From NCBI GenBank assembly GCA_937873445.1, contig CALMWF010000047.1, forward strand, positions 62,542-126,541: a stretch of DNA of 64,000 bases, written 5' to 3'. The DNA is from an uncultured Alphaproteobacteria bacterium (GTDB lineage: Bacteria > Pseudomonadota > Alphaproteobacteria > Rhizobiales > Aestuariivirgaceae). The notes under the pieces are model-generated. The model was not told the DNA's origin and did not search any database. It worked only from the letters and a program-made list of their open reading frames with translations. A program made the translations under genes and the position numbers. This document shows, piece after piece, positions 34,607 through 50,109 of this stretch (within the stretch, counting starts at the first letter, position 1; each line of letters opens with the position of its first letter).

Positions 34607-36340
34607 ATGCGGCAAGTTCTGAACATTTTCTTCAAGGCCGAAGGCACCAAGCCCTGGCTGGTGCTGCTCGGCCTGCTGCTGGCCGGCATGGCCGAGGCGC
34701 TGGGCATGACCACGCTGCTGCCCGCTGCCGCGGCCATCCTCGACCCGACTTCGGCCGGAACCGGCATTGGCGCCACCATCCGCGGCGTCATCGAGCGGCT
34801 GGGCATCACGCCCACGGTTGGCTCCATGCTGGCCATCATTGTTGGCCTCATGCTGTTCCGGGCCATCCTGTCCTTTGCCGCCATGGTCTATGCCGGCATG
34901 ACCGCGGCCCGCGTTTCCATCAACCTGCGCCGCCGCCTTATTGCCGCCCTGTTCAACGCCCGCTGGCGCTTCTATTCCGATCAGCGCAGCGGCCGCATGG
35001 CCAACGCCATCAGCAACGATGCCACCCGCGCCGGGGACGCCTATAATCTGGCGGCCGCCCTGACGGCCAACATCTTCCAGCTTCTCGCCTATGCGGTGGT
35101 GGCGCTGCTGGTGGACTGGCGCGTCGCCCTGGTGGGCTTCTTCTCCGGCTCCCTCATGGCGCTGGCCACCGGCTGGCTGGTGCGCCTGTCAAAGCGCTCC
35201 AGCTACAAGCAGACCGACCGCCAGTCGCAGTTGACCGGCGACATGGTGGACATGATCACCAACATCAAGGCCCTCAAGTCCATGAACCGCTACGGCTTCA
35301 TGATCGACGGGCTGAGCCAGCAGTTGCACCGTCTGAAGCGCACACTGGTCACCCTGCAACTGGCCAAGCATGGCGTGTCCTATGGCAATGATGCGCTGGT
35401 CGCCGTGCTGATCGCCTTTGGCGCCTGGCTGATGCATGTCTACTGGCACAAGACCTTGCCGGAAATGGTGGTGATGGGCATTGCCTTCGTCCAGATCGTC
35501 TCCAGCGTCTCCAAGTTCCAGAAGCAGCTGAACACCGCCATCCAGATGGAAAGTGCCTTCATCCGCACCGAACAGCTGATCGCCGGAGCCGAGGCCGAAC
35601 GTGAGGTGCTGACTGGCACGGCAGCGCCCCACCTCGGCACCGGCGCGCGCTTTGCCAATGTCAGTTTCGGCCATGGCGATGCCCCGGTGGTGAAGAACGT
35701 GAGCTTTGCCATTCCGGCCGGCCAGATCACCGTGCTGCAGGGACCGTCGGGGGCGGGCAAGACCACCCTCATTGATCTGCTCATCGGCCTCCATCTGCCG
35801 CAAGCGGGTGACATCTTCATCGGCACCGATGCCATCCAGACCGTGGACCTGAAGGCCTGGCGCCAGCGCATCGGCTATGTGCCGCAGGAGCTGGTGCTGT
35901 TCCATGACACCATCCGCACCAACATCACCCTGGGCGATCCGTCCCTCGGCGACGAGGCGGTGCGGGCCGCCCTCGAACAGGCCGGTGCCACGGATTTCAT
36001 CGCCTCGCTGCCGCATGGCCTCGACACGGTGGTGGGCGAAATGGGCGGCAAGCTGTCGGGCGGCCAGCGCCAGCGCATTTCTCTGGCCAGGGCACTGGTC
36101 AAGCAGCCTGAACTGCTCATCCTTGATGAAGTGACCAGCGCCCTCGACCCCGAGGTTGAAGCCGCCATTGTGGCCAACATCTCGGAATTGCGCGGCCGCT
36201 ACACCATCATTGCCATCACCCACCGTCCGGCCTGGACCGCCATTGCCGATCAGCTCTATCAGGTGCAGGCTGGCCATGTGCGCCCGGTTGCCACCCAGCG
36301 CACGCCCAGATCTGCCAGCAAACGAAAGCCGCGCCCGTGA
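34607..36340 (+). CDS. ABC exporter, fused permease-ATPase, first gene of the sphingolipid-type operon
   Basis: 577 residues. Type-1 exporter membrane domain with about six helices (residues ~12-300), then a nucleotide-binding domain: Walker A GPSGAGKTTLIDLL, Q-loop YVPQELVLFHD, signature KLSGGQRQRISLARAL, Walker B LLILDEVTSALD and H-loop AITHRP. Half-transporter acting as a homodimer, of the MsbA/lipid-exporter kind by layout. Its stop overlaps the next start (GTGA, 36337-36340), so it is coupled to the GNAT acyltransferase; this suggests a lipid or lipid-linked substrate, by inference. Confidence 0.9.
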   Translation: MRQVLNIFFKAEGTKPWLVLLGLLLAGMAEALGMTTLLPAAAAILDPTSAGTGIGATIRGVIERLGITPTVGSMLAIIVGLMLFRAILSFAAMVYAGMTAARVSINLRRRLIAALFNARWRFYSDQRSGRMANAISNDATRAGDAYNLAAALTANIFQLLAYAVVALLVDWRVALVGFFSGSLMALATGWLVRLSKRSSYKQTDRQSQLTGDMVDMITNIKALKSMNRYGFMIDGLSQQLHRLKRTLVTLQLAKHGVSYGNDALVAVLIAFGAWLMHVYWHKTLPEMVVMGIAFVQIVSSVSKFQKQLNTAIQMESAFIRTEQLIAGAEAEREVLTGTAAPHLGTGARFANVSFGHGDAPVVKNVSFAIPAGQITVLQGPSGAGKTTLIDLLIGLHLPQAGDIFIGTDAIQTVDLKAWRQRIGYVPQELVLFHDTIRTNITLGDPSLGDEAVRAALEQAGATDFIASLPHGLDTVVGEMGGKLSGGQRQRISLARALVKQPELLILDEVTSALDPEVEAAIVANISELRGRYTIIAITHRPAWTAIADQLYQVQAGHVRPVATQRTPRSASKRKPRP

Positions 36341-37470
36341 CCGTCACCATCCGTGAAGTCCGCAGCCGGGCCGACAGGATCGCCTTCCTCAAGGTGCCCT
36401 TCGCCCTCTACCGCAATGACCCCAACTGGGTGCCGCAACTGTTCTTCGAGCGCCTGGAACATCTGAGCGAGAAGAAGAACCCCTATTTCGACCATGCCGA
36501 GGCACAGCTGTTCATCGCCGAACGCCAGGGCAGCGCCGTGGGCCGCATCTCCGCCCAGATCGACCGGCTGCACCTTGAGCGCTACAACGACGCCACCGGC
36601 CAGTTCGGCTTTCTCGAGGCCGAGGACGACCCGCAGGTTTTTGCCGCCCTGTTTGCCGCCGCCGAAAACTGGCTGCGGGCGCGCGGCATCCGGCGTGTGC
36701 AGGGGCCCTTCAGCTTCTCCATCAATGACGAAGTGGGCCTGCTCATCGACGGTTTCGATACACCCCCCAACATCATGATGGGCCACGCCCTGCCCTATTA
36801 CCGGCAGCGCGTGGAGGAAAAGGGCTTCACCAAGGCCAAGGACGTCATTGCCTATTACTATGACGCCCATGCCAAGCTGCCGCCGGTTGTTGAAAAGGTT
36901 TTCACCCGCGCCATGGCCTCGCCCGACATATCGGTCAGGCCCATCGACATGAAGAACCTGAAGCGCGACCTGGCCATCATCATGGACATCTTCAATGATG
37001 CCTGGTCGGACAACTGGAACTTCGTGCCCTTCACCCAGCGCGAACTGGAAGCACTCGGCACCAATCTGAAGATGCTGGTGAAGCCGGAATATGTCTCCAT
37101 CGTGAATTACAAGGGCGAGCCCGCCGCCATGGCGGTGACCCTGCCCAATCTCAACGAATGGATTGCCGGACTGAACGGCCGCCTTCTGCCCTTCGGCTGG
37201 GCCAGGCTGCTGCGCGAAGTGATCCGCAAGCGGCCGCGGACCGGGCGCATGCCGCTCATGGGCGTGCGCAAGAAATACCAGTCGGGCCTGCTCGGCTCAT
37301 CGCTGGCCATTGCCGCCATCAAGACCGTCAATGACTATCACTACGGCCGCGGCACCCGCGCCGGAGAGGTGGGCTGGGTGCTGGAGGACAACACCGCCAT
37401 GCGCCACATCATCGAAACCCTCGACAGCAAGCCCTACAAGACCTACCGCGTGTTTGAAAAGGCCCTGTAA
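36337..37470 (+). CDS. bcerS: GNAT-like acyltransferase, bacterial ceramide synthase candidate
   Basis: 377 residues, much longer than ordinary GNATs. N-terminal half: FLKVPFALYRNDPNWVPQL, YFDHAEAQLFIAERQGSAVGRI, WLRARGIRRVQGPFSFSINDEVGLL, GFDTPPNIMMGHALPYY; second half IIMDIFNDAWSDNWNFVPFTQREL and C-terminal GWVLEDNTAMRHIIE. In Caulobacter a GNAT-type enzyme encoded in the ceramide locus N-acylates 3-ketosphinganine (bCerS). Same size class and same position relative to spt, so I assign it as the ceramide synthase, from context and resemblance. GTG start, coupled to the ABC gene. Confidence 0.72.
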   Translation: MTVTIREVRSRADRIAFLKVPFALYRNDPNWVPQLFFERLEHLSEKKNPYFDHAEAQLFIAERQGSAVGRISAQIDRLHLERYNDATGQFGFLEAEDDPQVFAALFAAAENWLRARGIRRVQGPFSFSINDEVGLLIDGFDTPPNIMMGHALPYYRQRVEEKGFTKAKDVIAYYYDAHAKLPPVVEKVFTRAMASPDISVRPIDMKNLKRDLAIIMDIFNDAWSDNWNFVPFTQRELEALGTNLKMLVKPEYVSIVNYKGEPAAMAVTLPNLNEWIAGLNGRLLPFGWARLLREVIRKRPRTGRMPLMGVRKKYQSGLLGSSLAIAAIKTVNDYHYGRGTRAGEVGWVLEDNTAMRHIIETLDSKPYKTYRVFEKAL

Positions 37471-38309
37471 TGGCAGAGCATTCCTGGCAGGCGCTGGTGC
37501 TGGCGGCGGGCCGCGGCCCCGATGACCCCATGGCGCGCGCCTATGCCATCACCCACAAGGCCGGCCTGATGCTGGCGGGCAAGCCCATGCTGCTGCATGT
37601 GGTGGAGGCGCTGCGCCATTCCCCCGGCATTGCCGGCATTACTGTGGTCATTGAGAATGAGGCGCTGCTCAACGCCATTCTGGGGCCAGACCGGGGCGAC
37701 GTTGCCTTTGCCCCCGCCATGGCCTCCGCCCCGGCCTCCGCCATGGCGGCCATGCGCACCCTTGCCTATCCGGTGCTCATCACCACCGGCGATCATGCCC
37801 TCCTCACCCCGGCCATGATTGCCTGCGTGCTGGAACAGGCCGAGCGCAACGAGGCCGATGTCGGTGTGGCCCTGGCCACCGCTGAGACCATCACCGAACA
37901 TTGGCCGGAAACCCGGCGCACCTATTTCGCCCTCGGCCCCGACCGCGTTTCCGGCTGCAACCTCTTTGCCATCCGCCACCCGCGCGGCCTGAAGCTGCTT
38001 GACCGCTGGCAATATCTCGAAGGCGTGCGCAAGAAGCCGTGGCGTCTGGTGGCCGCCTTCGGCATGAAGCCGCTGTGGCTCTTCCTCACCGGCCGGATCA
38101 ATCTGGACCGCGCCTTCCGGCTGGTCGGACAGCGCCTCGGCCTCACCATCCGGCCCATTCTCATGCCCTTTGCCGAAGCGGCCATGGATGTGGACAAACC
38201 GTCCGACAAGGACCTGGCAGAACAGATCCTGCTGGCCCGCGCAACCGCTGACGTCGATGCCGATCAGCACGAGTCTGATCCGCTTTCCCCGCCCGCGCCA
38301 AACCGCTAA
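37470..38309 (+). CDS. MobA-like nucleotidyltransferase
   Basis: 279 residues. NTP-transferase opening WQALVLAAGRGPDDPMARAYAITHKAGLMLAGKPMLLHVVEAL: an enlarged version of the L-A-A-G-x-G...K-x-L-x-x-x-G-x-P loop, with ITTGDHALLTPAMI carrying the metal-binding Asp. Members activate sugars, polyols or amino alcohols as NDP/CDP derivatives. Its ATG overlaps the previous stop by one base (TAATG). In this operon it may prepare the head group used by the CDP-alcohol enzyme, but that is inference. Confidence 0.78.
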   Translation: MAEHSWQALVLAAGRGPDDPMARAYAITHKAGLMLAGKPMLLHVVEALRHSPGIAGITVVIENEALLNAILGPDRGDVAFAPAMASAPASAMAAMRTLAYPVLITTGDHALLTPAMIACVLEQAERNEADVGVALATAETITEHWPETRRTYFALGPDRVSGCNLFAIRHPRGLKLLDRWQYLEGVRKKPWRLVAAFGMKPLWLFLTGRINLDRAFRLVGQRLGLTIRPILMPFAEAAMDVDKPSDKDLAEQILLARATADVDADQHESDPLSPPAPNR

Positions 38310-38344
38310 AAGCGGAACTCCGATTCAACCCGCATCCGCGCCCC

Positions 38345-39262
38345 GTGATCTTCACCCTCGCCCAGCTTTCCGACGTTCATCTCGGCCCCCTGCCCAGGGG
38401 CGCCATCTGGCGCGACTTCTCGCCCAAGCGGATCATCGGCGGCGCCTCCTGGCTGTTCAACCGGCAGCACATGCATGTGCCGGAAATTGCCGCCGCCCTG
38501 CGCGCCGACATCATGGCCGCCCGGCCTGATCACATCGCCCTCACCGGCGATCTGGTCAACATTGCCGCCCCGGCGGAATTTCCCCGCGCCGCCCAATGGC
38601 TTCAGGACTTTGCCCCCCCGGCCGACCTGTCCTTCATTCCCGGCAATCACGACACCTATGTGCCGGTTTACTGGGAACGCGGCCTGAAAGTGCTGGAACC
38701 GTGGATGAAGGGGGACATGACCGTGGCCAATGCGGTCATTTCGCCGCTTCTGGCCACACCCTTTCCCTATGTCCGGCTGCGCCGCAATGTGGCCCTCATC
38801 GGCCTGTCCACCGCCGTGCCCCAGTCGCTGCGCAAGGCCGGCGGCAGCCTGGGGCCGGGGCAGATTGCGGCGATGGCCCACCTGCTCCGCCAGCTGCGCG
38901 AGCGCGGCTATTACCGCGCCGTGATGATCCATCATCCGCCGCTGCCCGGCCAGAACAGCCCGCGCAAGGCCCTGACCGACGCCGAAGCCTTCACCGAGGT
39001 GCTCATTGCCGAGGGTGCCGAACTGGTGCTGCACGGCCACAATCACCGCGCCATGAACACCCCCCTGGCGGGCCGCCACGGCCCGGTGCCGGTCATCGGC
39101 GTGCCGTCGGCCTCCATGGTGGAGGGCGGCGTGCGCGATCCGGCTGCCTGGAACCGCTACACCATCGAACGCCGTGACGGCCGCTGGCACACAGAGGTTT
39201 CGGTGCGCCGCTGGCATGCCGCCTCGGCCAGCCTGGTGGATGCCGACAGCTTCCAGCTTTGA
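38345..39262 (+). CDS. Calcineurin-like metallophosphoesterase
   Basis: 305 residues from a GTG. All metal motifs are present: LSDVHLG, LTGDLVN, PGNHDTY, MIHHPPL and HGHNHR. Family members hydrolyse phosphomonoesters or diesters, including UDP-diacylglucosamine (LpxH/LpxI-like function) and other phospholipid intermediates. It is embedded in the sphingolipid operon, so a lipid-phosphate or nucleotide-lipid substrate is plausible but unproven. 35-base gap from the nucleotidyltransferase gene. Confidence 0.85.
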   Translation: MIFTLAQLSDVHLGPLPRGAIWRDFSPKRIIGGASWLFNRQHMHVPEIAAALRADIMAARPDHIALTGDLVNIAAPAEFPRAAQWLQDFAPPADLSFIPGNHDTYVPVYWERGLKVLEPWMKGDMTVANAVISPLLATPFPYVRLRRNVALIGLSTAVPQSLRKAGGSLGPGQIAAMAHLLRQLRERGYYRAVMIHHPPLPGQNSPRKALTDAEAFTEVLIAEGAELVLHGHNHRAMNTPLAGRHGPVPVIGVPSASMVEGGVRDPAAWNRYTIERRDGRWHTEVSVRRWHAASASLVDADSFQL

Positions 39263-39293
39263 TCCCGCCGCCCGACCGGCTACACTCCCCCCG

Positions 39294-39737
39294 ATGAACC
39301 CCACCCTGGAAAAATTCGGCTATCCCGGCAGTGTGCTGCTTGAGCTTGCGCACTGGGTGGTGCTGCTGCGCCCGGCCCAGGCCACGCTGGGAGCACTTGT
39401 TCTCGGCGCCAGGTCCCACGCCCGCAGCTTTGCCGCCCTGCCGCCAGAGGCACATGCCGAACTGGCCACCGCCAGCCGCCGCATCGAGGCGGCCCTGGCC
39501 GCCTTCCGGCCCCATGACCGCCTCAACTATCTGATGCTGATGATGGTCGATCCGGAGGTTCACTTTCACGTTCTGCCGCGCTATGCCACCGTACAGAATT
39601 TCAACGGCACGGCCTTTCCCGACCCCGGCTGGCCCGGCCTGCCCGACCTCAAATCCGCCCCGGTCTTGACCGAGGCTCAGCGCCTTGACCTTCACCGCGC
39701 CCTGGCGCACGCCTTCACCGCAACCGCCAGAGCCTGA
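39294..39737 (+). CDS. HIT-like protein with altered histidine triad
   Basis: 147 residues. HIT fold: VVLLRPAQATLGALVLGARSHARSFAALPPEAHAELATASRRIEAAL, NYLMLMMVDPEVHFHVLPRY. In the usual H-x-H-x-H-x-x motif the first His is Glu here (E-V-H-F-H-V-L-P-R), while the catalytic middle His and the third His remain. HIT proteins act as nucleotidyl hydrolases or transferases on AMP/ADP-type or NDP-linked substrates, which fits an operon of nucleotide-activated lipid enzymes. Start ATG at 39294; 31 bases after the phosphoesterase. Confidence 0.78.
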   Translation: MNPTLEKFGYPGSVLLELAHWVVLLRPAQATLGALVLGARSHARSFAALPPEAHAELATASRRIEAALAAFRPHDRLNYLMLMMVDPEVHFHVLPRYATVQNFNGTAFPDPGWPGLPDLKSAPVLTEAQRLDLHRALAHAFTATARA

Positions 39738-39741
39738 CCCC

Positions 39742-40962
39742 GTGCTGAAAACCCTCGACCGCTACATTCTGCGACAGGTGGCCACGCCGCTCACGGCGGC
39801 ACTGGCCATTGGCCTGTCCATGATGCTGGCCGAGCGTCTGGTGCGCCTGCTCGATGTCACCCTGGGCAAGAACAATTCCTTCGGCGTGGTCTTCGAGATG
39901 CTGGGCTATCTGGTGCCCCACTATCTCGCCACGGCCATTCCCGCCGCCCTGTTCCTTGGCCTGCTGCTGGGCTTCAACCGCCTGTCCAAGAACAGCGAAA
40001 TCACCGCCGCCCTGGCCTCCGGCGTGGGGCTGCACCGCCTGGCCCGTCCGGCCATTCTGCTGTCGGTCGCGTTCCTCGGCCTGTCGCTGGCCGTCTATGG
40101 CTGGCTCAAGCCCATCTCCTACTATGCCTACCGCTCGGTGCTGTTCAACGTGAAGAACGTCGAAATCTTCTATCTGGCCGAGGAAGGCGTGTTCATGCAG
40201 TCCGGCAGCCGCACCTTCATTCTCGACAAGCTCGACCACGCCACCAACACCTTCGAGCGCATCTTCCTGTTCGACTACAAAGGCCCCGGCGGCTCCGAAA
40301 CGCTCACCGCCACCAACGGCCAGCTCATTCCCGTGCCGGGTGAAAAACGCCCGGTGCTGCGCCTCGAAAACGGCCACCGCCTGGTCATCAACCGCTGGCC
40401 CACGCTGGACGAGAATGCCCCCCCGCCCGTGGCCGAAACGGGCGCCTTCGGGCAGATTGACACGCCGCTGGGCAAGCTTGATCTCAAGGCCTTCCGGCCG
40501 CGCGGCCAGGACGAGCGCGAATTGACCCTGCCCGAACTCTACCAGAAGCTTGACGCCCCGCCCACCGACGCCACGCCCCAGTCCATGCGCGCCGAATTCC
40601 ACAAGCGTCTGGTCAGCATCCTGTCCATGCTGATCCTGCCCTTCCTTGCCATTCCCTTCGCCATCGGCGACAGCCGCAGCCCGCGCAGCTACCGTATCGG
40701 CGTGGCCCTTGTCATTCTCATCGCCTATCACGAAATCATCGAGCAGGGGGCCATTGCCATCAAGGCCTCGGGCGCGCCGCCGCTGCTGGCCGTCTGGCTG
40801 CCTTTCGTGCTGCTTGCCAGCTTTGCGTTGTGGCGCTTCCGCGAAGCCTGCATTCACCTGCGCAGCGGCCGCCTCGATGCCATCCTCGAAACGGTCTACA
40901 GCCGGATCAGCCCCTACTGGAAAAGCTTCCGCCGCCGCATTGACTGGGAGGCCGAGGAATGA
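39742..40962 (+). CDS. lptF: LptF-like permease (lipid export), embedded in sphingolipid operon
   Basis: 406 residues from a GTG at 39742. LptF/LptG family: RYILRQVATPLTAALAIGLSMMLAERLVRLLD, LGYLVPHYLATAIPAALFLGLLLGFNRLSKNSEITAALASGVG, beta-jellyroll periplasmic region (~110-280), then the C-terminal helices LILPFLAIPFAIGDSRS. In the canonical system LptF and LptG move LPS from the inner membrane to LptA with the ATPase LptB. Here they sit with ceramide genes rather than with lptD/surA/pdxA/ksgA, so they may be a paralogous pair. Stop overlaps lptG start (ATGA). Confidence 0.85.
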   Translation: MLKTLDRYILRQVATPLTAALAIGLSMMLAERLVRLLDVTLGKNNSFGVVFEMLGYLVPHYLATAIPAALFLGLLLGFNRLSKNSEITAALASGVGLHRLARPAILLSVAFLGLSLAVYGWLKPISYYAYRSVLFNVKNVEIFYLAEEGVFMQSGSRTFILDKLDHATNTFERIFLFDYKGPGGSETLTATNGQLIPVPGEKRPVLRLENGHRLVINRWPTLDENAPPPVAETGAFGQIDTPLGKLDLKAFRPRGQDERELTLPELYQKLDAPPTDATPQSMRAEFHKRLVSILSMLILPFLAIPFAIGDSRSPRSYRIGVALVILIAYHEIIEQGAIAIKASGAPPLLAVWLPFVLLASFALWRFREACIHLRSGRLDAILETVYSRISPYWKSFRRRIDWEAEE

Positions 40963-42032
40963 GAGTTCTCGCCTGGATGCTGACCCGCATGGTGCTGGTG
41001 CGCTTTGTCTCCATTCTCATCGGCATCAGCCTGTTCGTGCTCACCCTTGAAGTGGTCGCCTATGCCAAGGAAATCCTGGCCGCGGGCCATGGCTCCCTGG
41101 GCTTCATTTTCCACTATGCCGTGATGCGATCGCCGGCCGTGCTGGCGGTTTTCCTGCCCATGAGCCTGCTGCTGGCCATGCTGCTCACCATGACCGAACT
41201 GTCCTACCGCAACGAACTGACCGCCATCTGGGGGGCGGGCGTGTCGCCGCTGCGCATTGTCTCCATGCTGCTGCCGGTTGCCATCATCACCGGCGGCATG
41301 CTGTTCCTGCTCAACAATTATGCCGCGCCCGCCGCCGCCCCCACCCTGCGCGCCTGGGGCATTGCCGACTATGCCGACAAGAAGGTGCAACTGGGCGAGA
41401 AGGATCCGCTGTGGATGCGCTCCGGCCCCGACATTCTGCGCGCCGCCGCCGCCAACGATGACGCCACCACCCTTGAGGATGTGGTGATTTTCCGGCGCGA
41501 TGCACAGGGCCTGCTGCATGAGCAGATCTTTGCCAAGACCGCCCATCTCGAGGGTGACCGCTGGAACCTGTCCGATGTCACCATCTACACGCGCTTCAAC
41601 CTGCCGCCCAACCGGCTGGCCACCCTGATCTATTCCGGCGCCATGAAACCGGCCGCCGCCGGTGCCCGCTCCGGTGATCCGGAGGAAATGACCCTGAGCG
41701 ACCTCAGCTATTTCATCAGCAATGCCGGTTTTGGCGTGCGCCCGGTCTGGGTCTATCAGACCTGGTGGCACAAGCGCCTGACCGCGCTGCTCACCACCAT
41801 CGCCATGATCGCGCTTTGCATTCCGCTGGCCTCGCACTTCCGGCGCGGCGGCGGCATTGGTGTTCTGTTTGCGGCCGGCGTCGGGCTGGGCTTCATCTAT
41901 TTCATCATCGACGGCATTGCCATGTCCGTGGGCGAACTGGGCTTTGTCACACCCTGGCTCGCCGCCTGGATGCCCACGCTAGTCTTTGCCCTTCTGGCGG
42001 TGGCCATGTCGCTCCGCGCCGAACGGGTCTGA
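40959..42032 (+). CDS. lptG: LptG-like permease, partner of the preceding LptF-like protein
   Basis: 357 residues. YjgP/YjgQ family pattern: RMVLVRFVSILIGISLFVLTLEVV, PAVLAVFLPMSLLLAMLLTMTELSYRNELTAIWGAGVSP, a periplasmic beta domain (~115-235) and three C-terminal helices ending LVFALLAVAMSLRAERV. No ATPase gene (lptB) is adjacent, so it would use a shared LptB or another ATPase. Coupled to lptF by a 4-base overlap; the CDP-alcohol enzyme gene follows 3 bases after its stop. Confidence 0.84.
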   Translation: MRVLAWMLTRMVLVRFVSILIGISLFVLTLEVVAYAKEILAAGHGSLGFIFHYAVMRSPAVLAVFLPMSLLLAMLLTMTELSYRNELTAIWGAGVSPLRIVSMLLPVAIITGGMLFLLNNYAAPAAAPTLRAWGIADYADKKVQLGEKDPLWMRSGPDILRAAAANDDATTLEDVVIFRRDAQGLLHEQIFAKTAHLEGDRWNLSDVTIYTRFNLPPNRLATLIYSGAMKPAAAGARSGDPEEMTLSDLSYFISNAGFGVRPVWVYQTWWHKRLTALLTTIAMIALCIPLASHFRRGGGIGVLFAAGVGLGFIYFIIDGIAMSVGELGFVTPWLAAWMPTLVFALLAVAMSLRAERV

Positions 42033-42035
42033 GCC

Positions 42036-43301
42036 ATGGACAAGACTGTGAAAGCAAAAAAGAAAAAAGCCGCCAGGCCGCCTGCTGCCGCTGCCGCCGC
42101 GGGGGCGGAAACCGCCACGCCGCCCCTCGGGGAAAGCCCCGCGCCGCGCCGCGAACTCACCGGCTTTTCGCCGGTTCTGTGCCTGCTGGGCGACAGTGCC
42201 CTGCGGCTGTTTGGCCGCAGCCTGCCGGAACGCCTCAAGCTGCAATTCGCCCGCGAGGGCATCACCGCGGTGAAAACCCTGGATGAAGCCCGTGATCATA
42301 ACGGCCCCATCATTCTGGTGCGCGCCGACTGTGTGCTCGATCCGCCGCTCATTCAGGCCGTGGTGAAGCGGCCGCAGTTTGTGCTGCTGGCCAGCGATGA
42401 CAGTGCCGCCCCCCTCGCCGCCCACATCCGCAAGGACAGCCTTGACAGGGCGGTGGCCGCCCTGCAGGGAAAGGGCGTGCCCGCCGGGCTTCTGGCCCGC
42501 CGCCCCGGCGAGCTTGATGCCCAGTTCTGGAAGGCGCTGCGCAAGCGCGAGGTGCCCTATGCCCTGACCGCCACAGCCGACACCCTGAAGGCGGTGGCCT
42601 GGCGGGTGTTCATGGGCACCTACAAGGGCGCCACCGATCTTGTTACCAAGCACGTCTGGCCGCGCCCTGCCTTTCACGTCACCTCCTGGCTGGCTGAACG
42701 CGGCGTCACCCCCAACATGGTCACCACGGTCGGCGCCATCGCCACGGTGCTGGCCTTCGTGCTGTTCTGGCGCGGCGACTATGCCCTGGGCCTCATTGCC
42801 GCCTGGGCCATGACCTTTCTTGACACGGTGGACGGCAAGCTGGCCCGCACCACCCTCACCTCATCCAAATGGGGTGACGTCTTTGACCACGGCATCGACC
42901 TCATCCACCCGCCCTTCTGGTATGTGGCCTGGGCACTGGGTCTCGCTGCCTGGGGTGTGGTCTGGCCCGCCGCCACCTTCTGGTGGGTCATCGCCATCAT
43001 TCTCGGCGGCTATGTGCTGCAACGGCTGATGGAGGGCATCGCCATCAAGTGGCTGGGTCTGGAAATCCACATCTGGCGGCCCATTGATACGCTGTTCCGT
43101 CAGGTGACGGCGCGGCGCAACCCCAACCTCATCCTGCTCAGTCTGTCGGTGCTGGCGCGGCGGCCCGACTGGGGCCTGCTGGCGGTGGCGGCCTGGACCC
43201 TCATCTGCCTGGTGCTGCACGGGCTGCAACTGGCCCAGGCCCTGCGCGCCAAGGCAAAACAGGGCGGCGGTCCACTGGTGTCGTGGATGACCCGGCCATG
43301 A
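42036..43301 (+). CDS. CDP-alcohol phosphotransferase with extra N-terminal domain
   Basis: 421 residues. The first ~195 residues are an Ala/Pro/Lys-rich tail followed by a Rossmann-like region without clear catalytic motifs. Residues ~215-400 hold a CDP-alcohol phosphotransferase domain with a full motif: Asp263, Asp266-Gly267, Ala270-Arg271, Gly280, Asp284, Asp288 (D-x2-DG-x2-AR-x8-G-x3-D-x3-D). These enzymes join a CDP-activated lipid or alcohol to an alcohol or phosphate. In Caulobacter a gene at this position helps make ceramide phosphoglycerate. The likely reaction here is CDP-ceramide plus head group, by inference. Confidence 0.85.
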   Translation: MDKTVKAKKKKAARPPAAAAAAGAETATPPLGESPAPRRELTGFSPVLCLLGDSALRLFGRSLPERLKLQFAREGITAVKTLDEARDHNGPIILVRADCVLDPPLIQAVVKRPQFVLLASDDSAAPLAAHIRKDSLDRAVAALQGKGVPAGLLARRPGELDAQFWKALRKREVPYALTATADTLKAVAWRVFMGTYKGATDLVTKHVWPRPAFHVTSWLAERGVTPNMVTTVGAIATVLAFVLFWRGDYALGLIAAWAMTFLDTVDGKLARTTLTSSKWGDVFDHGIDLIHPPFWYVAWALGLAAWGVVWPAATFWWVIAIILGGYVLQRLMEGIAIKWLGLEIHIWRPIDTLFRQVTARRNPNLILLSLSVLARRPDWGLLAVAAWTLICLVLHGLQLAQALRAKAKQGGGPLVSWMTRP

Positions 43302-44257
43302 GCCGCGCCGGCCTGCTGGTCAACCCGCGTGCCGCTCAGGGCAAGGGCAAGGGTCCGGCGCTGGCCGAGCGGCTGAACCACGATGCCTCCGTCTCGCTTG
43401 CCCGGCTTGATGACTTTGCCGCGCTGGAAGGCCACCTCCGCCGCTTCGCCGCCGAAGGCGTCAGCCATCTGTTCATCAGTTCCGGCGACGGCACCATACA
43501 GGCCATCCAGACCCTGCTGGCGGAAAACGCCATCTTCCCGGCCCGGCCCGCCCTTGGCCTTCTGCCCCACGGCACCACCAACATGACCGCCGCCGATCTC
43601 GGTTTCAGAAGCCGTGACCTCGATGCCCAGGCCCACTTCATCCGTTCCCTGAACATCACCCGGACCAGCACCCGCCCCACCCTGCGCATTGCCAACCCGG
43701 CTGACGGCAGGCCGCGCCACGGCATGTTCATGGGCACCGGGGCCGTGTCGGAAGCCACCCTCTATTGCCAGCGCGTCTTCAATGCCCGTGGCGTCACCGG
43801 CCACTGGGCCACCTTCGCCACCCTGGCGGGGGCGGTGGGCAAGGCCGCCTTTGCCCGGCCCAACCCGCATGATCCCCACCGTTTCGACCGGCCCTATGAA
43901 CTGGCGCTGGAGGCCGACGGCCACCGCCTTGCGGCGGGCAGCCACCTCATGGTCATCGCCACCACGCTGCACAAGCTGATCCTTCATGCCCGGCCCTTCT
44001 GGGCCGGCGGCGGCGCGGGCGCCATCCGCGCCAGCCTTTTCCCCTATCCCGTGCCCAATGTGTTCCGCTGGCTTCTGCCCATCATGTATGGCGGCGAACA
44101 GCGCCGCATGCCGCCGGGGGCGCAGTCGCTGCGCGCCAACCGGCTGGCCATTTCCTCGCGCGTTTCCTATGTGGTGGACGGCGAATTTTTTGCCGGGCCC
44201 GAGGGCGAGGCCCTGCGCGTGGAAACCGGGCCTGAATTCACCTATATGCTGGGCTGA
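43298..44257 (+). CDS. cpgB: Lipid kinase of the diacylglycerol/ceramide kinase type
   Basis: 319 residues. DAGK catalytic motifs: FISSGDGTIQAIQ (GDGT at ~63-66) and LGLLPHGTTNMTAADLG (~90-95). C-terminal beta region with SSRVSYVVDGEFFAG. In Caulobacter the kinase immediately upstream of spt phosphorylates ceramide (CpgB); here the kinase is followed by the Tam41-like gene and then a convergent spt, the same order. I chose the ATG at 43298 because it overlaps the previous stop (ATGA); an in-frame ATG at 43283 is the alternative. Confidence 0.75.
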   Translation: MSRAGLLVNPRAAQGKGKGPALAERLNHDASVSLARLDDFAALEGHLRRFAAEGVSHLFISSGDGTIQAIQTLLAENAIFPARPALGLLPHGTTNMTAADLGFRSRDLDAQAHFIRSLNITRTSTRPTLRIANPADGRPRHGMFMGTGAVSEATLYCQRVFNARGVTGHWATFATLAGAVGKAAFARPNPHDPHRFDRPYELALEADGHRLAAGSHLMVIATTLHKLILHARPFWAGGGAGAIRASLFPYPVPNVFRWLLPIMYGGEQRRMPPGAQSLRANRLAISSRVSYVVDGEFFAGPEGEALRVETGPEFTYMLG

Positions 44258-45114
44258 TGGACGCCCTCGCCACCTTTGCTGCCCGCGCACTCCGCCGCGC
44301 TCTGCCGCCGGAAACCCTGGCCATGGCGGAGGCCATCCGCAGCCGCCACCACAATGTGCAGGCTGTGCTCGCCTATGGCTCCACCCTGCGCGGCGTTGCC
44401 ACCGCCGACACGCTGATGGATTTCTATGTGCTGACCGCGACGCTGGCCGATGTGTCACCCAACATCATATCGCGCGCCGGAGCCGCACTGCTGCCGCCCA
44501 ATGTGTACTATGCCGAATGTTCCGTGAACGGACAGACCTTCCGCGCCAAATATGCCGTGCTGACGCTGGCCCGGTTCGCGCGCAAGATGCGCGTTGGCAA
44601 TCCCTATTTCTGGGCCCGCTTTGCCCAGCCCACGGCCCTCATCTTAGCCGCCGATGCGGCGGCCGAAGCGGCGGTGGCGGAAGCCGTGGCCCAGGCGCTG
44701 CGCACCGGCTGGGCGCGCGCCCTGGCGCTGCACCCACAAGGCCCCGCAGCGGCGCAATGGTCAGCACTCTTTGCCGAAACCTACCGCACCGAGCTGCGCC
44801 CCGAGGGCCAGAACCGCCCCGGCAGCATCGTCACCGCCTGGCCGGACTATTACGACGAAGCCGCGCGCCTGATGGCTGATGTAGCGCCCCACGCCGTGGC
44901 CTGGCCGCTGCGCCGCCTTGAGGGCAAACTGCTGACGATGCTGCGCCTCGCCAAGGCGGGCTTCACCTTCGCCGGTGGGGCCGACTACATCGTGTGGAAG
45001 ATCGAGCGCCACTCCGGCGCGAAAATCACCCTCACCGACTGGCAGCGCCGCCACCCGCTCATCGCCGGCCTGCTGCATCTGCCGTCGCTGTTGCGGCGTG
45101 GCGCGATCCGTTAA
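44257..45114 (+). CDS. Tam41-like CTP:lipid-phosphate cytidylyltransferase (CDP-ceramide synthase candidate)
   Basis: 285 residues. Nucleotidyltransferase-like start: VQAVLAYGSTLRG (YGS at ~40-42), then MDFYVLTA with Asp55; later PPNVYYAECSVNGQTFRAKYAVLTL and RFARKMRVGNPYFWARFAQPTALI. This combination (Y-G-S, M-D-F, N-V-Y-Y, K-Y-x-V) matches the mitochondrial CDP-diacylglycerol synthase Tam41 family. Lipid kinase first, cytidylyltransferase next and a CDP-alcohol transferase in the same operon make CDP-ceramide a natural product. Recognition is from memory of the family; a profile search should confirm. TGATG overlap with the kinase; overlaps the convergent spt stop by 4 bases. Confidence 0.72.
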   Translation: MDALATFAARALRRALPPETLAMAEAIRSRHHNVQAVLAYGSTLRGVATADTLMDFYVLTATLADVSPNIISRAGAALLPPNVYYAECSVNGQTFRAKYAVLTLARFARKMRVGNPYFWARFAQPTALILAADAAAEAAVAEAVAQALRTGWARALALHPQGPAAAQWSALFAETYRTELRPEGQNRPGSIVTAWPDYYDEAARLMADVAPHAVAWPLRRLEGKLLTMLRLAKAGFTFAGGADYIVWKIERHSGAKITLTDWQRRHPLIAGLLHLPSLLRRGAIR

Positions 45115-46301
45115 TTGCCCCGGCCCGCCACCACCCTGCCGAAGGTGGCGATGATCTGATCAATCTCGGCGTCGCTATGGGCCGCCGACACCGAGCAGCG
45201 CAGCAGGCACAATTTGTTGGGCGTGCCGGGCGGCAGGGCAATGTTCACATAGACGCCGTTCTGCAGCAGGGCGTTCCACATCATGATGGTGGTGGGTTCA
45301 TCCGGACATTTGACCGCCACCACCGGGCTCACCTGATCGGTGCCCAGTTCCAGACCCAGTGCCTTGAAGCCGTTGAACAGCCGCGCCGAATTGGCCGCCA
45401 GACGCGCCCGCCGCTCCGGCTCTGCCGCCAGCTTCTTCACCGCCGCCAGCGACGTGGCAATGGAAGCGGGCGACGATGACGCCGTGAACATATAGGGCCG
45501 CATGGCATAGCGCAGGGTTTCAAACAGCGGATGGTTGCCCGCACCAAAACCACCAATGGCGCCCACGCTCTTGGAGAAGGTGCCGACCACGAAATCAATG
45601 TCGTCCTCCAGCCCCACCTCATCGGCCAGGCCCCGGCCATGGGGGCCGAGCACGCCGAAGGAATGGGCCTCATCGGCCAGAAGCTGGAAGCCGTGCTTCT
45701 TCTTCACGGCCACGAAGTCGGCCAGCGGTGCGCGGTCACCCAGCATGGAATAGATGCCCTCCACCACCACCAGCTTGCCGCCCTCGCCCTCGGAGCGGGA
45801 AAGCCGCTTGTCGAGGTCGGTGGCGTCATTGTGCCGGAAGCGCACCAGCTTGGCGCCCGACAGGGTGCAGCCGTCATAGATGGAGGAATGGGAATCGGCG
45901 TCGAGATAGATGGTGTCATTGGGTCCGGCCAGACCTGAAAGCATGCCGAGATTGGCCTGATAGCCGGTGGTGAAGACAATGCAGTGCTTGCGGTTGAGGA
46001 AGCGCGCCAGCTCTGCTTCCAGTTCCTTGTGCATGGCATAGGAACCATTGGCAATGCGCGAACCGGTGGTGCCGGTGCCGAAGTCGGCCATGGCCTTCTG
46101 GCCCGCGGCAATGCAGTCGGCATCAAAGGTGATGCCCATGTAATTGTTGGTGCCCGCCAGAATGGTCTCGCGCCCCTGAATGAAGCCCCGCGTTGGCGAA
46201 AGGATCCGGTCATTGACCAGATTGACCGCATTGACGCCCAGTTCCATCATGCGCTTGTGGCGCTCGGCAATGCCGCGATGCTTGTCCAGCAGATCAACCA
46301 T
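45111..46301 (-). CDS. spt: Serine palmitoyltransferase (alpha-oxoamine synthase)
   Basis: 396 residues. AOS family: NNYMGITFDADCIAAG, FGTGTTGSRIANGSYAMHKELE, PLP-ring His138, LLADEAHSFGVLGPHGRG (Asp210, His213) and the PLP Lys244 in GTFSKSVGAIGGF. Condenses serine with an acyl thioester to 3-ketosphinganine; the downstream-encoded ACP next to it suggests an acyl-ACP donor. In the order FAAL-cerR-acp-spt it is the last gene of the minus operon, 3 bases after acp. It could otherwise be a KBL/BioF-type enzyme, but the context favours Spt. Confidence 0.9.
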   Translation of the reverse strand: MVDLLDKHRGIAERHKRMMELGVNAVNLVNDRILSPTRGFIQGRETILAGTNNYMGITFDADCIAAGQKAMADFGTGTTGSRIANGSYAMHKELEAELARFLNRKHCIVFTTGYQANLGMLSGLAGPNDTIYLDADSHSSIYDGCTLSGAKLVRFRHNDATDLDKRLSRSEGEGGKLVVVEGIYSMLGDRAPLADFVAVKKKHGFQLLADEAHSFGVLGPHGRGLADEVGLEDDIDFVVGTFSKSVGAIGGFGAGNHPLFETLRYAMRPYMFTASSSPASIATSLAAVKKLAAEPERRARLAANSARLFNGFKALGLELGTDQVSPVVAVKCPDEPTTIMMWNALLQNGVYVNIALPPGTPNKLCLLRCSVSAAHSDAEIDQIIATFGRVVAGRGN

Positions 46302-46304
46302 GTT

Positions 46305-46550
46305 TCATGCCTTCCTGCGCTTGGCCACCACCAGGGCGAGGTCGCCGATGGTGCGCGTCTCCGACACGACATTGAGCGGAATCTCGATGTCGTAGAAATC
46401 CTCCACCTCCATCACGAAATCCATGATGTCCACCGAGTCGATGTTGAGCTCGGCGGGAATGTCCGTCTCAGCGGTCAATGTCACCCCGCCCTTGTTATAG
46501 GGCTGAAGCAGGGTAACGATCTGGGCCACAATGTCGGCAGGTGCGTTCAT
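46305..46550 (-). CDS. Acyl carrier protein, dedicated to sphingolipid synthesis
   Basis: 81 residues, acidic, helical. Phosphopantetheine site Ser39 in ELNIDSVDIMDFVMEVEDFYDIEIP (the canonical D-S-L is D-S-V). Distinct from the housekeeping AcpP. Sits between cerR and spt with gaps of 11 and 3 bases. Probably receives the acyl chain from the ligase encoded at the start of the operon and hands it to Spt. Confidence 0.9.
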   Translation of the reverse strand: MNAPADIVAQIVTLLQPYNKGGVTLTAETDIPAELNIDSVDIMDFVMEVEDFYDIEIPLNVVSETRTIGDLALVVAKRRKA

Positions 46551-46561
46551 GTTTCATCCGT

Positions 46562-47503
46562 TTACTGATCTTTGAGTGGCGGCAGCCACCCCTCAGCCCG
46601 ATACCAGGCCAGTGTCTGTGCCATCCCCTCCTCCAGCAGAATGGCGTCATCACGCGGCCAGCCATCGCCGCGCACCACCCAGTCACCGGAAAAGTACAGC
46701 TCGTTTATCTTGCCGGCATTGATCATGGAAGGGCTTTGCCGGTGCCGCGCCCAGGCTTCTGCCGCCACCGCCGCCAGCACCGGAATGGCCTTGGGCAGAT
46801 GGGCAATGCGGCGCGGGCGGCCATGCACCCGGCGTGCTGCGGCCATGAGATCGGCCCAGTCATGGCCACCCCTGGTGGTGTCGCCCACCTCGCGCAGGCC
46901 CACCACTTCAGCGGCCGCCGCCCGCGCCACCACCCGGGCAAAATCCGCCGCGTGGATGAGGGAAAAGCGCTGGCCGCGCCGCCCCGGCACCAGCGCCACC
47001 GGCCGCGTCAGTTCGCGGAACAGCGGCAGGGTGGCCCGGTCGCCCGGCCCGTAAATCGCCGCCGGCCGCAGGATGAACAGCCGCTCCACCGGCATCAGGT
47101 CCACCAGCAGGGTTTCGGCCGCGCGCTTGCTGGCCGCATAGGCCGAAAGCTCCGGCTGGCGCGCCGCCAGCGAGGAAATATGGACAAAGCGGCCCACGCC
47201 CTCGGCCAGCGCCGCTTCGGCCAGGCTGCGCGTGCCGTCGCGGTTCACCCGGAAATAGTCTTCCGCCGAAAGCCCGGTGATGGCACCCGCCACATGCACC
47301 ACCACATCCGCCCCCCGGCACAGTTGGCGCAGCGCCGCCTGATCCGCCAGATCGCCCTCAACCACCCGCACGTCGTGGGGCAGCTTGGCCCGGCCCGGCG
47401 CGCGCGCCAGAGCCGCCACCGCATGACCCGCCGCCAGAAGTTCGGTCAGAATGAAACGCCCGGCGAAGCCGGTGCCGCCGGTCAATGCAACCTTCAGCGT
47501 CAT
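46562..47503 (-). CDS. cerR: NAD-dependent epimerase/dehydratase-family oxidoreductase, CerR-like
   Basis: 313 residues. Extended SDR: ALTGGTGFAGRFI (residues ~7-18), HVAGAITG, SSLAARQPELSAYAASKRAAE with Tyr122 and Lys126 as the Y-x3-K pair, and FILRPAAIYGPGD. In Caulobacter the corresponding gene product (CerR) reduces the 3-keto group of oxidised ceramide after N-acylation. Assignment by position between the ACP and the acyl ligase genes. Ten bases downstream of the ligase gene. Confidence 0.82.
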   Translation of the reverse strand: MTLKVALTGGTGFAGRFILTELLAAGHAVAALARAPGRAKLPHDVRVVEGDLADQAALRQLCRGADVVVHVAGAITGLSAEDYFRVNRDGTRSLAEAALAEGVGRFVHISSLAARQPELSAYAASKRAAETLLVDLMPVERLFILRPAAIYGPGDRATLPLFRELTRPVALVPGRRGQRFSLIHAADFARVVARAAAAEVVGLREVGDTTRGGHDWADLMAAARRVHGRPRRIAHLPKAIPVLAAVAAEAWARHRQSPSMINAGKINELYFSGDWVVRGDGWPRDDAILLEEGMAQTLAWYRAEGWLPPLKDQ

Positions 47504-47512
47504 GGCAAACCG

Positions 47513-49306
47513 TTACTGTGCCGCCACCATGGCCGGACGCGGCATTTCGGCAATCTCGCCGTCGAGATATTTCTGCCGTGCCCCCGCCCGCGACAGCTTG
47601 CCGGAGGAGGTGAAGGGCAGGCTCTTGGGCGGCACCAGCACGATCTGGCACTGCACGCCAGCGCTTTCATGCACCACTGCCCCCACCTCGCGGCGCAGCG
47701 CCTCGCGCGCCGCCGCGTCGGCCAGGCGGCATTCCACCAGCACCACCACCTCGTCCTCGCCGGTGGCGCCTTCCACCGCAAAGGCCGCCACATCGCCGGA
47801 GCGCACGCCGTCCACCCGTTCGGCCGCCCACTCAATGTCCTGTGGCCAGATGTTGCGGCCGTTGTGGAGAATGAGGTCCTTGGCCCGCCCGGTGATGACA
47901 ATCGCGCCATCGAGCAGATAGCCCATGTCGCCGGTGTCGAGGAAGCCATCCGCCCCCACCACCGCCGCCGTGGCCTCCGGCTTCTGGTAATAGCCCGCCA
48001 TCAGGCTCGGCCCCGTCACCATGATGCGGCCGATGCGCCGCTCCGGCAGGGCCTTGCCGTCCTCGCCGCGCACTTCCATGGCATGGCCCGGCAAGGGCTT
48101 GCCGCACACCACGAAGCTGCGCAGTTCCGCCTCCGGCTGGCCGGGGCGCGCCGGCACGGCGTGATGGAAGGTCTTCATGGCGGCGCGGTCAATGCGGTCC
48201 ACCTTGAGGTCGGAGCCGACATCGACGAAGGACACCGCCAGCGTCGATTCCGCCATGCCATAGCTCGGCATGAAGGCACTGGCCTTGAAGCCCGCCGCCG
48301 CCATGGTGCGCGAAAATTCCTCCAGCACATCGGCGCGCACCATGTCGCCGCCAATGCCGGCCACGCGCCAGGCCGAAAGATCAAGCGAGGCCGCATCGCC
48401 ATTGACCCGCCGCGCCGCCAGCTCATAGCCGAAGGTGGGCGAGAAGGCAGCGGTTGAGCGGTTGTCGCTCATCAGCTTCAGCCACAGCGCCGGGCGCCGG
48501 GCAAAGGCCGTCGTGGCCATGAAATCCACCGTCACCTGGCCCATCATCGGCGCCAGACAGAAGCCCACAAGGCCCATGTCGTGATAGAGCGGCAGCCATG
48601 AGAAGGCGCGGTCGGCGGGCGTGATCTTCAGGCCATAACGCAGAATGCCGGTGCCGTTGGCGGCAATGGATTTCTGGGTGATGAGCACACCCTTGGGATC
48701 AGACGTCGATCCCGACGAATACTGGATATAGGCCACGTCATCGGCGCTGAAGCCCTCAAGCCGCGCCATGCTTTCCGGCTGGGCCTGCAGTTCGGCATGA
48801 GTGAGCACCCGGCTCACCCCGGCGAGCCTGGCGCCATCGCCGATCTGCCCGGCCAGTTCGTCGGTGGTGATGACGGTGTTGGCGCGCGCCGCCTTCAGCA
48901 TGCCGGCCACGCGTTCCACATAGGCATCGCGGCCGCCGATATACATGGAATAGGGCATGGGGCACGGCACCAGACCGGCATACTGGCAGCCGAAGAACAC
49001 GGTCATGAAGTCAGCGCCGGTTTCGGCCACCACGGCCACGCGATCACCGGGCTTCACCCCGGCCGACAGCAGCTTGCGCGCCGTGGCAAGGGCGCGGTGG
49101 CGCAACTCGGCATAGGGCAGCACCGTCTGAAGCGCGCCGCGGCCGGAGTAGAAATTGAACCCGGTCACCCCCTGCGCGGCATAATCCAGCGCATCGGCAA
49201 TGGTGGCGAAGCCGCCAAGACGCTGGGGCAGATGGCGATTGGCCCGGGGTGTGCGTTGCAGTTCCGGCGTTGCCGCCATCCTGTCCCTGACCATGCTTGC
49301 CGTCAT
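47513..49306 (-). CDS. Fatty acyl-AMP ligase / acyl-ACP synthetase of the sphingolipid operon
   Basis: 597 residues. AMP-forming superfamily: core IQYSSGSTSDPKGVLITQKSI, LPLYHDMGLVGFCLAPM, PSYGMAESTLAVSFVD, YLLDGAIVITGRAKDLILHNGRNIWPQDIE and catalytic Lys in PFTSSGKLSRAGARQKYL. The Y-H-D-M-G-L and G-M-A-E-x-T blocks are typical of FAAL enzymes, which load ACPs rather than CoA. First gene of the minus operon. Start taken as ATG 49306 (AGGG 10 bases upstream); 49294 is the next option. Presumed partner: the ACP two genes downstream. Confidence 0.85.
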   Translation of the reverse strand: MTASMVRDRMAATPELQRTPRANRHLPQRLGGFATIADALDYAAQGVTGFNFYSGRGALQTVLPYAELRHRALATARKLLSAGVKPGDRVAVVAETGADFMTVFFGCQYAGLVPCPMPYSMYIGGRDAYVERVAGMLKAARANTVITTDELAGQIGDGARLAGVSRVLTHAELQAQPESMARLEGFSADDVAYIQYSSGSTSDPKGVLITQKSIAANGTGILRYGLKITPADRAFSWLPLYHDMGLVGFCLAPMMGQVTVDFMATTAFARRPALWLKLMSDNRSTAAFSPTFGYELAARRVNGDAASLDLSAWRVAGIGGDMVRADVLEEFSRTMAAAGFKASAFMPSYGMAESTLAVSFVDVGSDLKVDRIDRAAMKTFHHAVPARPGQPEAELRSFVVCGKPLPGHAMEVRGEDGKALPERRIGRIMVTGPSLMAGYYQKPEATAAVVGADGFLDTGDMGYLLDGAIVITGRAKDLILHNGRNIWPQDIEWAAERVDGVRSGDVAAFAVEGATGEDEVVVLVECRLADAAAREALRREVGAVVHESAGVQCQIVLVPPKSLPFTSSGKLSRAGARQKYLDGEIAEMPRPAMVAAQ

Positions 49307-50009: not shown

Positions 50010-50109
50010 GGGCACCACTCCTGATCTGCAACTGTGCCATGCCGGGCCACCTTGACGGATAACCCGGCTGTCACACCATCGCCATGCAGGGCCAGTGCCA
50101 GACCGCGCC

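Follow-up and report, generated by a model that had tools for sequence, protein, structure and literature searches.

How sphingolipids reach the outer membrane of the bacteria that make them is stated to be unknown in two papers on the Caulobacter pathway (PMC11324152, PMC11087976; these and the other papers below are cited from partial texts). A locus that bears on this question lies in a 64,000-nucleotide stretch of DNA, hereafter the window, from an uncultured alphaproteobacterium of the family Aestuariivirgaceae (assembly GCA_937873445.1, contig CALMWF010000047.1, positions 62,542 to 126,541, forward strand). Two convergent gene sets fall here within about 15 kb, their stop codons overlapping by 4 bp (45111-45114). 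They hold the ceramide synthesis genes aasR, cerR, acpR, spt and cerS, the head-group genes cpgA, cpgB and cpgC, and a pair of genes for LptF/LptG permeases. An earlier note, made from the letters of the window, had read them as a complete Caulobacter-type ceramide locus with a head-group and export branch, and the gene set, the domains and the NCBIfam models agree with this description of its type. What would such a locus do in this organism? Considering it together with the rest of the genome and with a survey of the class, we think it likely that the locus makes ceramide with an anionic phosphoglycerate head group, that the product is sent to the outer membrane via the Lpt bridge, and that the organism is probably devoid of lipopolysaccharide (LPS).

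Absence of LpxC and LpxK and retention of the Lpt bridge

The genome to which the window belongs (2.58 Mb in 47 contigs, 98% complete) gave no match to LpxC or LpxK with profiles that do match the E. coli and Caulobacter vibrioides controls; C. vibrioides, in contrast to the window organism, has both genes. LptC, LptA, an ATP-binding cassette (ABC) ATPase at the place of lptB and sigma-54 (rpoN) are encoded in one operon, and there is one LptD. The pair in the ceramide locus is the only LptF/LptG pair of the genome, a third match of 19 bits having been rejected as an EamA transporter by Pfam. The system shares with the canonical LPS exporter LptB2FGC-A-D the PF03739 permeases and, in the own genome, LptC, LptA, LptD and an LptB-like ATPase, and differs from it in that LptF and LptG fall outside the ordinary clade and stand among sphingolipid genes rather than by lptD.

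We call ordinary any LptF/LptG pair that is unlinked to cpgC in a genome with LpxC (19 loci). Adjacency to lptD covered 11 of these 19 loci, the genomes of L142 and L143 having LptD on another contig. The lptF-lptG pair directly precedes lptD in 10 of the 11 (in L166 lptD was unmatched and surA follows), and pepA stands on the other side of the pair in 7 of the 11; in the others the flank was short or pepA was unmatched. The window's own genome has 189 bp between pepA and lptD without lptF-lptG in this interval, and pepA also adjoins lptD with no pair between in two genomes of other families that lack LpxC (G037, G093). The ordinary LptF/LptG pair has been lost from the site by lptD, while the rest of the bridge stayed. 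Since LpxC and LpxK are missing, no LPS should compete for this bridge in the window organism. The absence of LpxC and LpxK, of the ordinary pair and of cpgD (below) escaped the earlier note, because seeing it takes the rest of the genome.

A gene for a KdsB-like CMP-Kdo synthetase (G000:C39, L039:1432-2184; PF02348, KdsB by our reading) persists before a prephenate dehydratase-like gene, although LpxC and LpxK are absent. Any Kdo made could go into a capsule, or could be a relic.

The LptF/LptG pair of the locus is of a separate type

For comparison we used the best 80 (closest fifth) of 390 relatives found with a 10-sequence subset of CpgC, referred to below as the named loci. A tree of 125 LptF/LptG domains was built, including 27 named loci picked for spread (one domain was used from a fused open reading frame (ORF) in L144, and L148 contributed one protein only). 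The 19 ordinary LptF proteins form a clade (support 0.999), as do the 19 ordinary LptG proteins (1.0). The window pair and all cluster-linked pairs, whether from genomes with LpxC, from genomes without it or from the 27 named loci, lie outside these clades. Two pairs of family f14 (G145:C1 and G012:C1; L152, L153) also lie outside; their genomes have LptD and lack LpxC and CpgC.

Pairwise alignment places A, L and A of the window LptG at K34, K40 and K41 of the solved LptG 6mit. The basic pair at positions 40-41, KK in 6mit and RR in L141 (an ordinary LptG), is Leu-Ala in the window. We take K40 and K41 to have a role in LPS binding. A column-wise LptF/LptG comparison gave 7 and 2 columns, respectively, that are fixed differently at 80% or more. 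The NCBIfam models TIGR04407/TIGR04408 were tried as a test of type and set aside, since their cut-offs do not separate the types; the window LptF and LptG score 217.2 bits (cut-off 230) and 214.8 bits (cut-off 240).

Distribution of LptF/LptG among Alphaproteobacteria

Profile matches were counted in a class sample of 289 genomes. CpgC was found in 34 and LpxC in 243 of them: 20 genomes have CpgC without LpxC, 14 have both, 26 have neither and 229 have LpxC without CpgC (Fisher P = 6e-10). LpxC is therefore absent from 20 of the 34 genomes with CpgC and from 26 of the 255 without it. LpxK agrees with LpxC in all 37 genomes tested, being absent from the 20 that have CpgC and lack LpxC and present in all 17 tested with LpxC (once as a fragment). 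LptD was matched in all 34 genomes with CpgC.

The number of LptF/G matches follows the same division. All 14 genomes with both CpgC and LpxC have four or five, whereas none of the 20 with CpgC and without LpxC has four or more (two in 17 genomes, three in 2 and zero in 1), and four matches occur in 2 of the 229 genomes with LpxC and without CpgC. In this tally two genomes were taken as G255 and G280, with which the total of 267 agrees. LptF/G coordinates lie near cpgC in at least 7 of the 19 other genomes that have CpgC and lack LpxC. These genomes, with that of the window, span 13 families. Loci with cpgC were also seen outside Alphaproteobacteria, in Nitrospirales and relatives (L083-L086, L126, L128) and in Nevskia and Stagnimonas (L111, L124, L125, L127).

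What the cluster-type pair may carry

The survey numbers and the tree together suggest that cluster-type LptF/LptG most likely loads phosphosphingolipid onto a shared Lpt bridge, of which it would be the sole load after LPS loss. It could instead be supposed that the pair is an ordinary LPS exporter that has moved beside ceramide genes, LPS being made by a divergent or unassembled pathway. The KdsB-like gene would fit this, as would the persistence of LptD, LptA, LptC and the LptB-like ATPase and the NCBIfam annotation as LPS exporters that pairs of the cluster type receive in other genomes. Yet LpxC and LpxK are not found where the controls match, the pair lies outside the ordinary clade with the ordinary pair missing beside lptD, and the same low number of LptF/G recurs in 20 genomes of 13 families that have CpgC and lack LpxC. 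We consider this explanation very unlikely.

A different objection concerns the cargo. The sphingolipid might take some other route, with LptF2/G2 and the remaining Lpt proteins carrying some lipid of another kind (a glycolipid, for instance) and the linkage to cpg genes being regulatory. As far as the partial texts go, no sphingolipid flippase or transporter has been identified (PMC11087976) and transport was not studied for the Caulobacter region (PMC11324152), both of which leave room for such a route, and so does the presence of cluster-type LptF/LptG in the f14 genomes lacking LpxC and CpgC. The gene linkage, however, is tight: LptF and LptG overlap by 4 bp, LptG ends 3 bp from cpgA, and LptF and LptG were matched in 60 and 61 of the 80 named loci, respectively. 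In Caulobacter, moreover, cofitness links CC_1168 and CC_1156 to CC_1159 (PMC11324152). A separate route appears unlikely to us.

Under the export of a phosphosphingolipid by the Lpt bridge, the pathway would run as follows. AasR and AcpR would supply acyl-AcpR, Spt would make 3-oxo-sphinganine, CerS would acylate it and CerR would reduce the product, steps that others have shown in Caulobacter. CpgB would phosphorylate the ceramide, as also shown in Caulobacter, and CpgC would convert ceramide-1-phosphate to CDP-ceramide with cytidine triphosphate (CTP). With CpgD, which usually makes the donor, lost from the locus, CpgA would add a second unit from a CDP-alcohol supplied in some other way, or ceramide phosphoglycerate (CPG) would be the end product. 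Finally, judging from comparative genomics, LptF and LptG of the cluster, an old paralogue pair, would draw the lipid out of the inner membrane and hand it on to LptC, LptA and LptD, powered by LptB.

Several observations weigh against this account. It is drawn from gene content, and the own genome is in 47 contigs. The search for LPS loss covered LpxC and LpxK and left out LpxA, LpxB, LpxD and WaaA, and the KdsB-like cytidylyltransferase persists, so that Kdo may be made. The own genome has one LptC, beside lptA; LptC2 was not found, most genomes with and without LpxC alike giving one LptC match and 4 of 37 giving none, and the profile may overlook a second LptC if it is divergent. Support for the cluster-type clade is 0.96 for LptG and only 0.69 for LptF, and cluster pairs of other genomes pass the NCBIfam LptF/LptG cut-offs. 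The f14 pairs imply that the cargo need not be CPG. G071 (82% complete) has CpgC and LptD with zero LptF/G matches, and G244 has three. The survey counts ignore shared ancestry, though 13 families are involved.

A bolder version holds that an ancient LptF/LptG paralogue pair is a dedicated sphingolipid loader, that LPS and its own LptF/LptG were lost here and in genomes of up to a dozen other families of the class so that LptB-C-A-D serves the sphingolipid alone, and that cpgD was deleted with CpgA still in use, giving a second head group other than phosphoglycerate. We offer it tentatively, as something that might well prove wrong.

Relation to the Caulobacter phosphosphingolipid region

The locus is a member of the type of region published for Caulobacter, where 17 genes (CC_1152-CC_1168) include the five ceramide genes, CC_1161-CC_1158, CC_1153 and CC_1152, as well as LptC2/F2/G2 and a potential flippase; mutants place CC_1158-1161, 1152 and 1153 in the formation of CPG and CPG2 (Olea-Ozuna 2024, PMC11324152). 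The window shares with it the five ceramide genes, CpgA/B/C, a CC_1153-type nucleotidyltransferase, a CC_1158-type phosphoesterase, LptF2/G2 and the potential flippase, orthology to the CC_ numbers being assigned by published descriptions, domain content and neighbourhood rather than by alignment to Caulobacter sequences. The agreement in gene order that the earlier note had claimed extends to CpgA-B-C facing spt-acpR-cerR-aasR; the cerS/nucleotidyltransferase and MPE-HIT-LptFG blocks (MPE, metallophosphoesterase) are ordered differently, the window has no cpgD (CC_1152), and LptC2 was not found. The nucleotidyltransferase, the phosphoesterase and LptF/LptG, which it had regarded as extra members, are all in the published 17-gene region, and it follows from membership in this type that most of the branch it called poorly described is already in print (PMC11324152, PMC12275187).

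What goes beyond print is the loss of LPS genes and of the ordinary LptF/LptG with the bridge kept, the survey pattern of LptF/G and LpxC, and the loss of cpgD. No report linking LPS and ordinary LptF/LptG loss to a retained sphingolipid-linked LptF/LptG was found among the listed titles and abstract openings of open-licence literature. Sphingomonads are not known to have LPS. In S. wittichii and Z. mobilis the ceramide, CPG and Lpt2 genes have orthologues that are scattered over 6-10 regions (PMC11324152), unlike the single 15-kb block of the window. In Caulobacter, LPS can be dispensable when anionic sphingolipids are present (PMC12275187).

Ceramide synthesis genes

All five ceramide genes are present together, cerS being assigned by context only. 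Spt scores 585.6 bits with the serine palmitoyltransferase equivalog NF047599 (NCBIfam; cut-off 500), and the solved structures closest to it are those of serine palmitoyltransferases (PDB 2x8u, E 2e-134). Membership in the BioF/KBL families, which the earlier note had named as what would speak against a sphingolipid locus, is rejected by the profile scores: 313 bits for bioF (cut-off 426) and 277 for glycine C-acetyltransferase (cut-off 460). AasR likewise scores above the cut-off of NF006624, a model for fatty acyl-AMP ligases (781.8 bits, cut-off 600), in keeping with its first description. Pfam supports the ABC exporter, MobA-like protein, metallophosphoesterase, LptF/G, CDP-alcohol transferase, lipid kinase, acyl carrier protein and CerR as they had been named. 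AcpR is 96% identical in L050.

CerS, called a GNAT acyltransferase in the earlier note, matched neither Pfam nor NCBIfam; the name is assigned from the position of the gene and from the function in print (PMC11324152, PMC11087976). Of the 80 named loci, 52 hold both CerS and the nucleotidyltransferase NT1, and in 51 of these the two are adjacent and on one strand. Spt and CerS are described as cytoplasmic and CerR as periplasmic, with the function of reducing oxidised ceramide (PMC11087976). The ABC exporter of the cluster may be a flippase. It was matched in 24 of the 80 named loci and falls outside the MsbA equivalog TIGR02203 (249.3 bits, cut-off 602).

Head-group genes

CpgB of Caulobacter is an assayed ceramide kinase, its activity reportedly published in PMC10331486, and the roles of CpgA and CpgC are left open in the partial text of the same paper (PMC12275187). 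CpgC has no Pfam match, and a PDB sequence search gave nothing. Its structural model (predicted local distance difference test, pLDDT, 94.0) has Tam41 as its two best fold matches (7ecd and 6ig2; for 7ecd, E 7e-7, template modelling score about 0.5 and 15% identity), and Y40, G41, D55 and K98 are invariant in 29 sequences. The Tam41-like cytidylyltransferase of the earlier note is thus borne out by predicted fold. Tam41 is a CDP-diacylglycerol synthase; for CpgC the proposed substrate is ceramide-1-phosphate, not phosphatidate, and the fold makes CDP-ceramide a likely product. Most likely, on this modelled structure, CpgC uses CTP to make CDP-ceramide en route to CPG.

CpgA retains the CDP-alcohol motif (D263, D266, G267, A270, R271, G280, D284 and D288, invariant in 30 sequences), with 5d92, AF2299 (4o6n) and IPCT-DIPPS (4mnd) as fold matches. 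It resembles IPCT-DIPPS and AF2299/PIP synthase in its two-domain build and intact catalytic motif and differs from them in an N-terminal domain without, by eye, the glycine-rich nucleotidyltransferase signature. Two CpgA-like genes surround CpgB-CpgC in L083, L085 and L086, and Dongia-type loci (L093, L109, L114, L116, L129) have, beside the main CpgA, a second CpgA-like gene between CerS and LptG that is 34-38% identical to the window CpgA.

NT1 has TTHA0179 (2dpw) as best solved relative and a weak F420_cofC match (NCBIfam). As a candidate for CpgD it was rejected, because it resembles CofC/TTHA0179 and a distinct CpgD-like protein adjoins it in relatives. It is kept in loci without CpgA and so probably does not serve CpgA alone. 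The Caulobacter CC_1153 mutant accumulates ceramide and CPG (PMC11324152). MPE was matched in 58 of the 80 named loci.

The HIT protein scores 19.0 bits with PF01230 in the window, below the cut-off of 21.5, whereas 4 of 5 scanned orthologues pass; both His of its HxH motif are invariant in 42 sequences. In 53 loci HIT and CpgA occur together in 33, CpgA alone in 7, neither in 13 and HIT alone in none (Fisher P = 9e-8). This count takes linked genes in loci that have LptF, LptG, CpgB, CpgC and 1.5 kb upstream of LptF, leaving out 6 loci with a short flank and 21 of 80 without one of the four genes, and ignores kinship. That HIT was matched only alongside CpgA goes against the printed view of CC_1157, which by its position we infer to be the HIT gene, as probably unrelated. 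In Z. mobilis CC_1159 and CC_1157 are both missing (PMC11324152), a joint absence that fits the link. HIT may be a helper of the CpgA step; the 7 loci that have CpgA without a linked HIT speak against a strict requirement.

Loss of cpgD from the locus

CC_1152/ccna_01210 is CpgD, an assayed CTP:phosphoglycerate cytidylyltransferase (PMC12275187). As query we used a CpgD-like protein beside NT1 in Nevskia (L124), taken as CpgD from its resemblance to IMPCT and CTP:phosphocholine cytidylyltransferase, its position and its occurrence in 19 of the 20 genomes with CpgA; the CpgD structures of PMC13228409, itself a partial text, are absent from its PDB matches. In Nevskia (L124:423-1816) a gene for a fatty acid hydroxylase (PF04116) comes after the CpgD-like gene; its product is a candidate ceramide acyl-chain hydroxylase, as proposed for CC_0202.

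Strong CpgD matches (E < 1e-50) were found in 19 of the 34 genomes with CpgC, and these are exactly the genomes with CpgA (E < 1e-70, 20 genomes) minus the window's own. Among named loci with NT1 and MPE in this order, an antisense cpgD separates the two in 22 of 23 that have CpgA and in 0 of 10 that lack it. L050, the closest relative, with a CpgC 79% identical, and known from a 20.9-kb locus alone, is the sole exception among the 23. Between the window and L050 the ratio of nonsynonymous to synonymous substitution rates (dN/dS) of CpgA is 0.163; the other 16 compared genes range from 0.064 to 0.39 (LptF 0.163, CpgB 0.197). The absence of cpgD from both loci, the intact CpgA motif and the low dN/dS argue that cpgD has truly gone from the locus and that CpgA is seemingly in use.

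This might still be an ordinary Caulobacter-type CPG2 locus of unchanged chemistry, with cpgD elsewhere in the genome or in an unassembled gap. A genome 98% complete in 47 contigs and a relative known from its locus would allow that, and all 19 other CpgA-bearing genomes have a strong CpgD match. On the other side, two separate assemblies (the window and L050) lack cpgD at its usual site and have the flanking genes intact, and the own genome gave no strong match, the best being 30 bits to an ORF read as MurU-like. We regard a cpgD elsewhere as possible, if doubtful. If cpgD is indeed absent with CpgA under selection, one would expect a head group with just one phosphoglycerate, or with a different second unit. 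The word complete in the earlier note accordingly applies to the ceramide and CPG genes and not to CPG2.

Layout of the locus and neighbouring genes

The 14 named genes are all open and of full length, in the order given earlier, by an ORF check of the window (Table 1). Short overlaps had been claimed for both operons. They occur in the plus-strand operon (1, 1, 4, 4 and 19 bp), alongside gaps of 35, 31, 4 and 3 bp, whereas the minus-strand genes have gaps of 3, 11 and 9 bp and no overlaps. LptF probably starts at GTG 39742, right after the HIT end at 39737, rather than at the mechanical TTG 39685.

Table 1. Features of the phosphosphingolipid locus, in window coordinates.
Feature	Coordinates	Strand	Support
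ABC exporter, MsbA/HepA-like, candidate flippase	34607..36340	+	PF00005, PF00664
CerS, bacterial ceramide synthase (GNAT-type per literature)	36337..37470	+	gene context; 4-bp overlap with ABC gene
NT1, MobA/CofC-like nucleotidyltransferase, CC_1153 type, not CpgD	37470..38309	+	PF12804
35-bp gap at the site of antisense cpgD in relatives; cpgD absent	38310..38344	.	locus comparison
MPE, calcineurin-like phosphoesterase, CC_1158 type	38345..39262	+	PF00149
HIT-family protein, probable partner of CpgA as nucleotide hydrolase/transferase	39294..39737	+	PF01230, sub-threshold
LptF, sphingolipid-linked type	39742..40962 (inferred start; mechanical ORF 39685-40962)	+	PF03739, 225 bits
LptG, sphingolipid-linked type	40959..42032	+	PF03739, 218 bits
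CpgA, CDP-alcohol phosphotransferase; N-terminal domain (about 46-180) of cytidylyltransferase fold	42036..43301	+	PF01066
CpgB, ceramide kinase (DAGK family)	43283..44257	+	PF00781
CpgC, Tam41-fold nucleotidyltransferase, proposed CTP:ceramide-1-phosphate cytidylyltransferase	44257..45114	+	model fold
Spt, serine palmitoyltransferase	45111..46301	-	NF047599; aminotransferase I/II (Pfam)
AcpR, dedicated acyl carrier protein	46305..46550	-	PF00550
CerR, oxidised-ceramide reductase, epimerase/NDUFA9 type	46562..47503	-	PF01370; function per PMC11087976 (partial text)
AasR, fatty acyl-AMP ligase	47513..49306	-	PF00501, NF006624
X1, unknown protein, C-terminal hydrophobic stretch (by eye)	49437..50054	-	adjoins aasR in part of the group
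X2, unknown protein, N-terminal hydrophobic stretch (by eye)	50110..50805	-	locus matches

Beyond aasR, X1 was matched in 13 and X2 in 7 of the 80 named loci. X1 has no NCBIfam match and its longest ORF (49437-50207) no Pfam match; X2 has no Pfam match and a dN/dS of 0.165 between the window and L050. One of the two might be a missing bridge component, with no domain support. Just upstream of the locus (26484-33190) lies an aerotolerance-type set comprising a MoxR-type AAA ATPase, a BatA/DUF4159 protein and a large protein without Pfam match.

Implications

The survey suggests an answer to the question of sphingolipid transport: the Lpt machinery, loaded by a second LptF/G pair. Organisms without LpxC and LpxK are good test cases, as no LPS should compete in them. 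Automatic annotation can mislabel cluster-type permeases as LPS exporters. Retention of CpgA without cpgD, together with the pairing of CpgA and HIT, points to unassigned steps in the head-group chemistry. More broadly, the Lpt machinery may outlive LPS, which bears on bacterial life without LPS.

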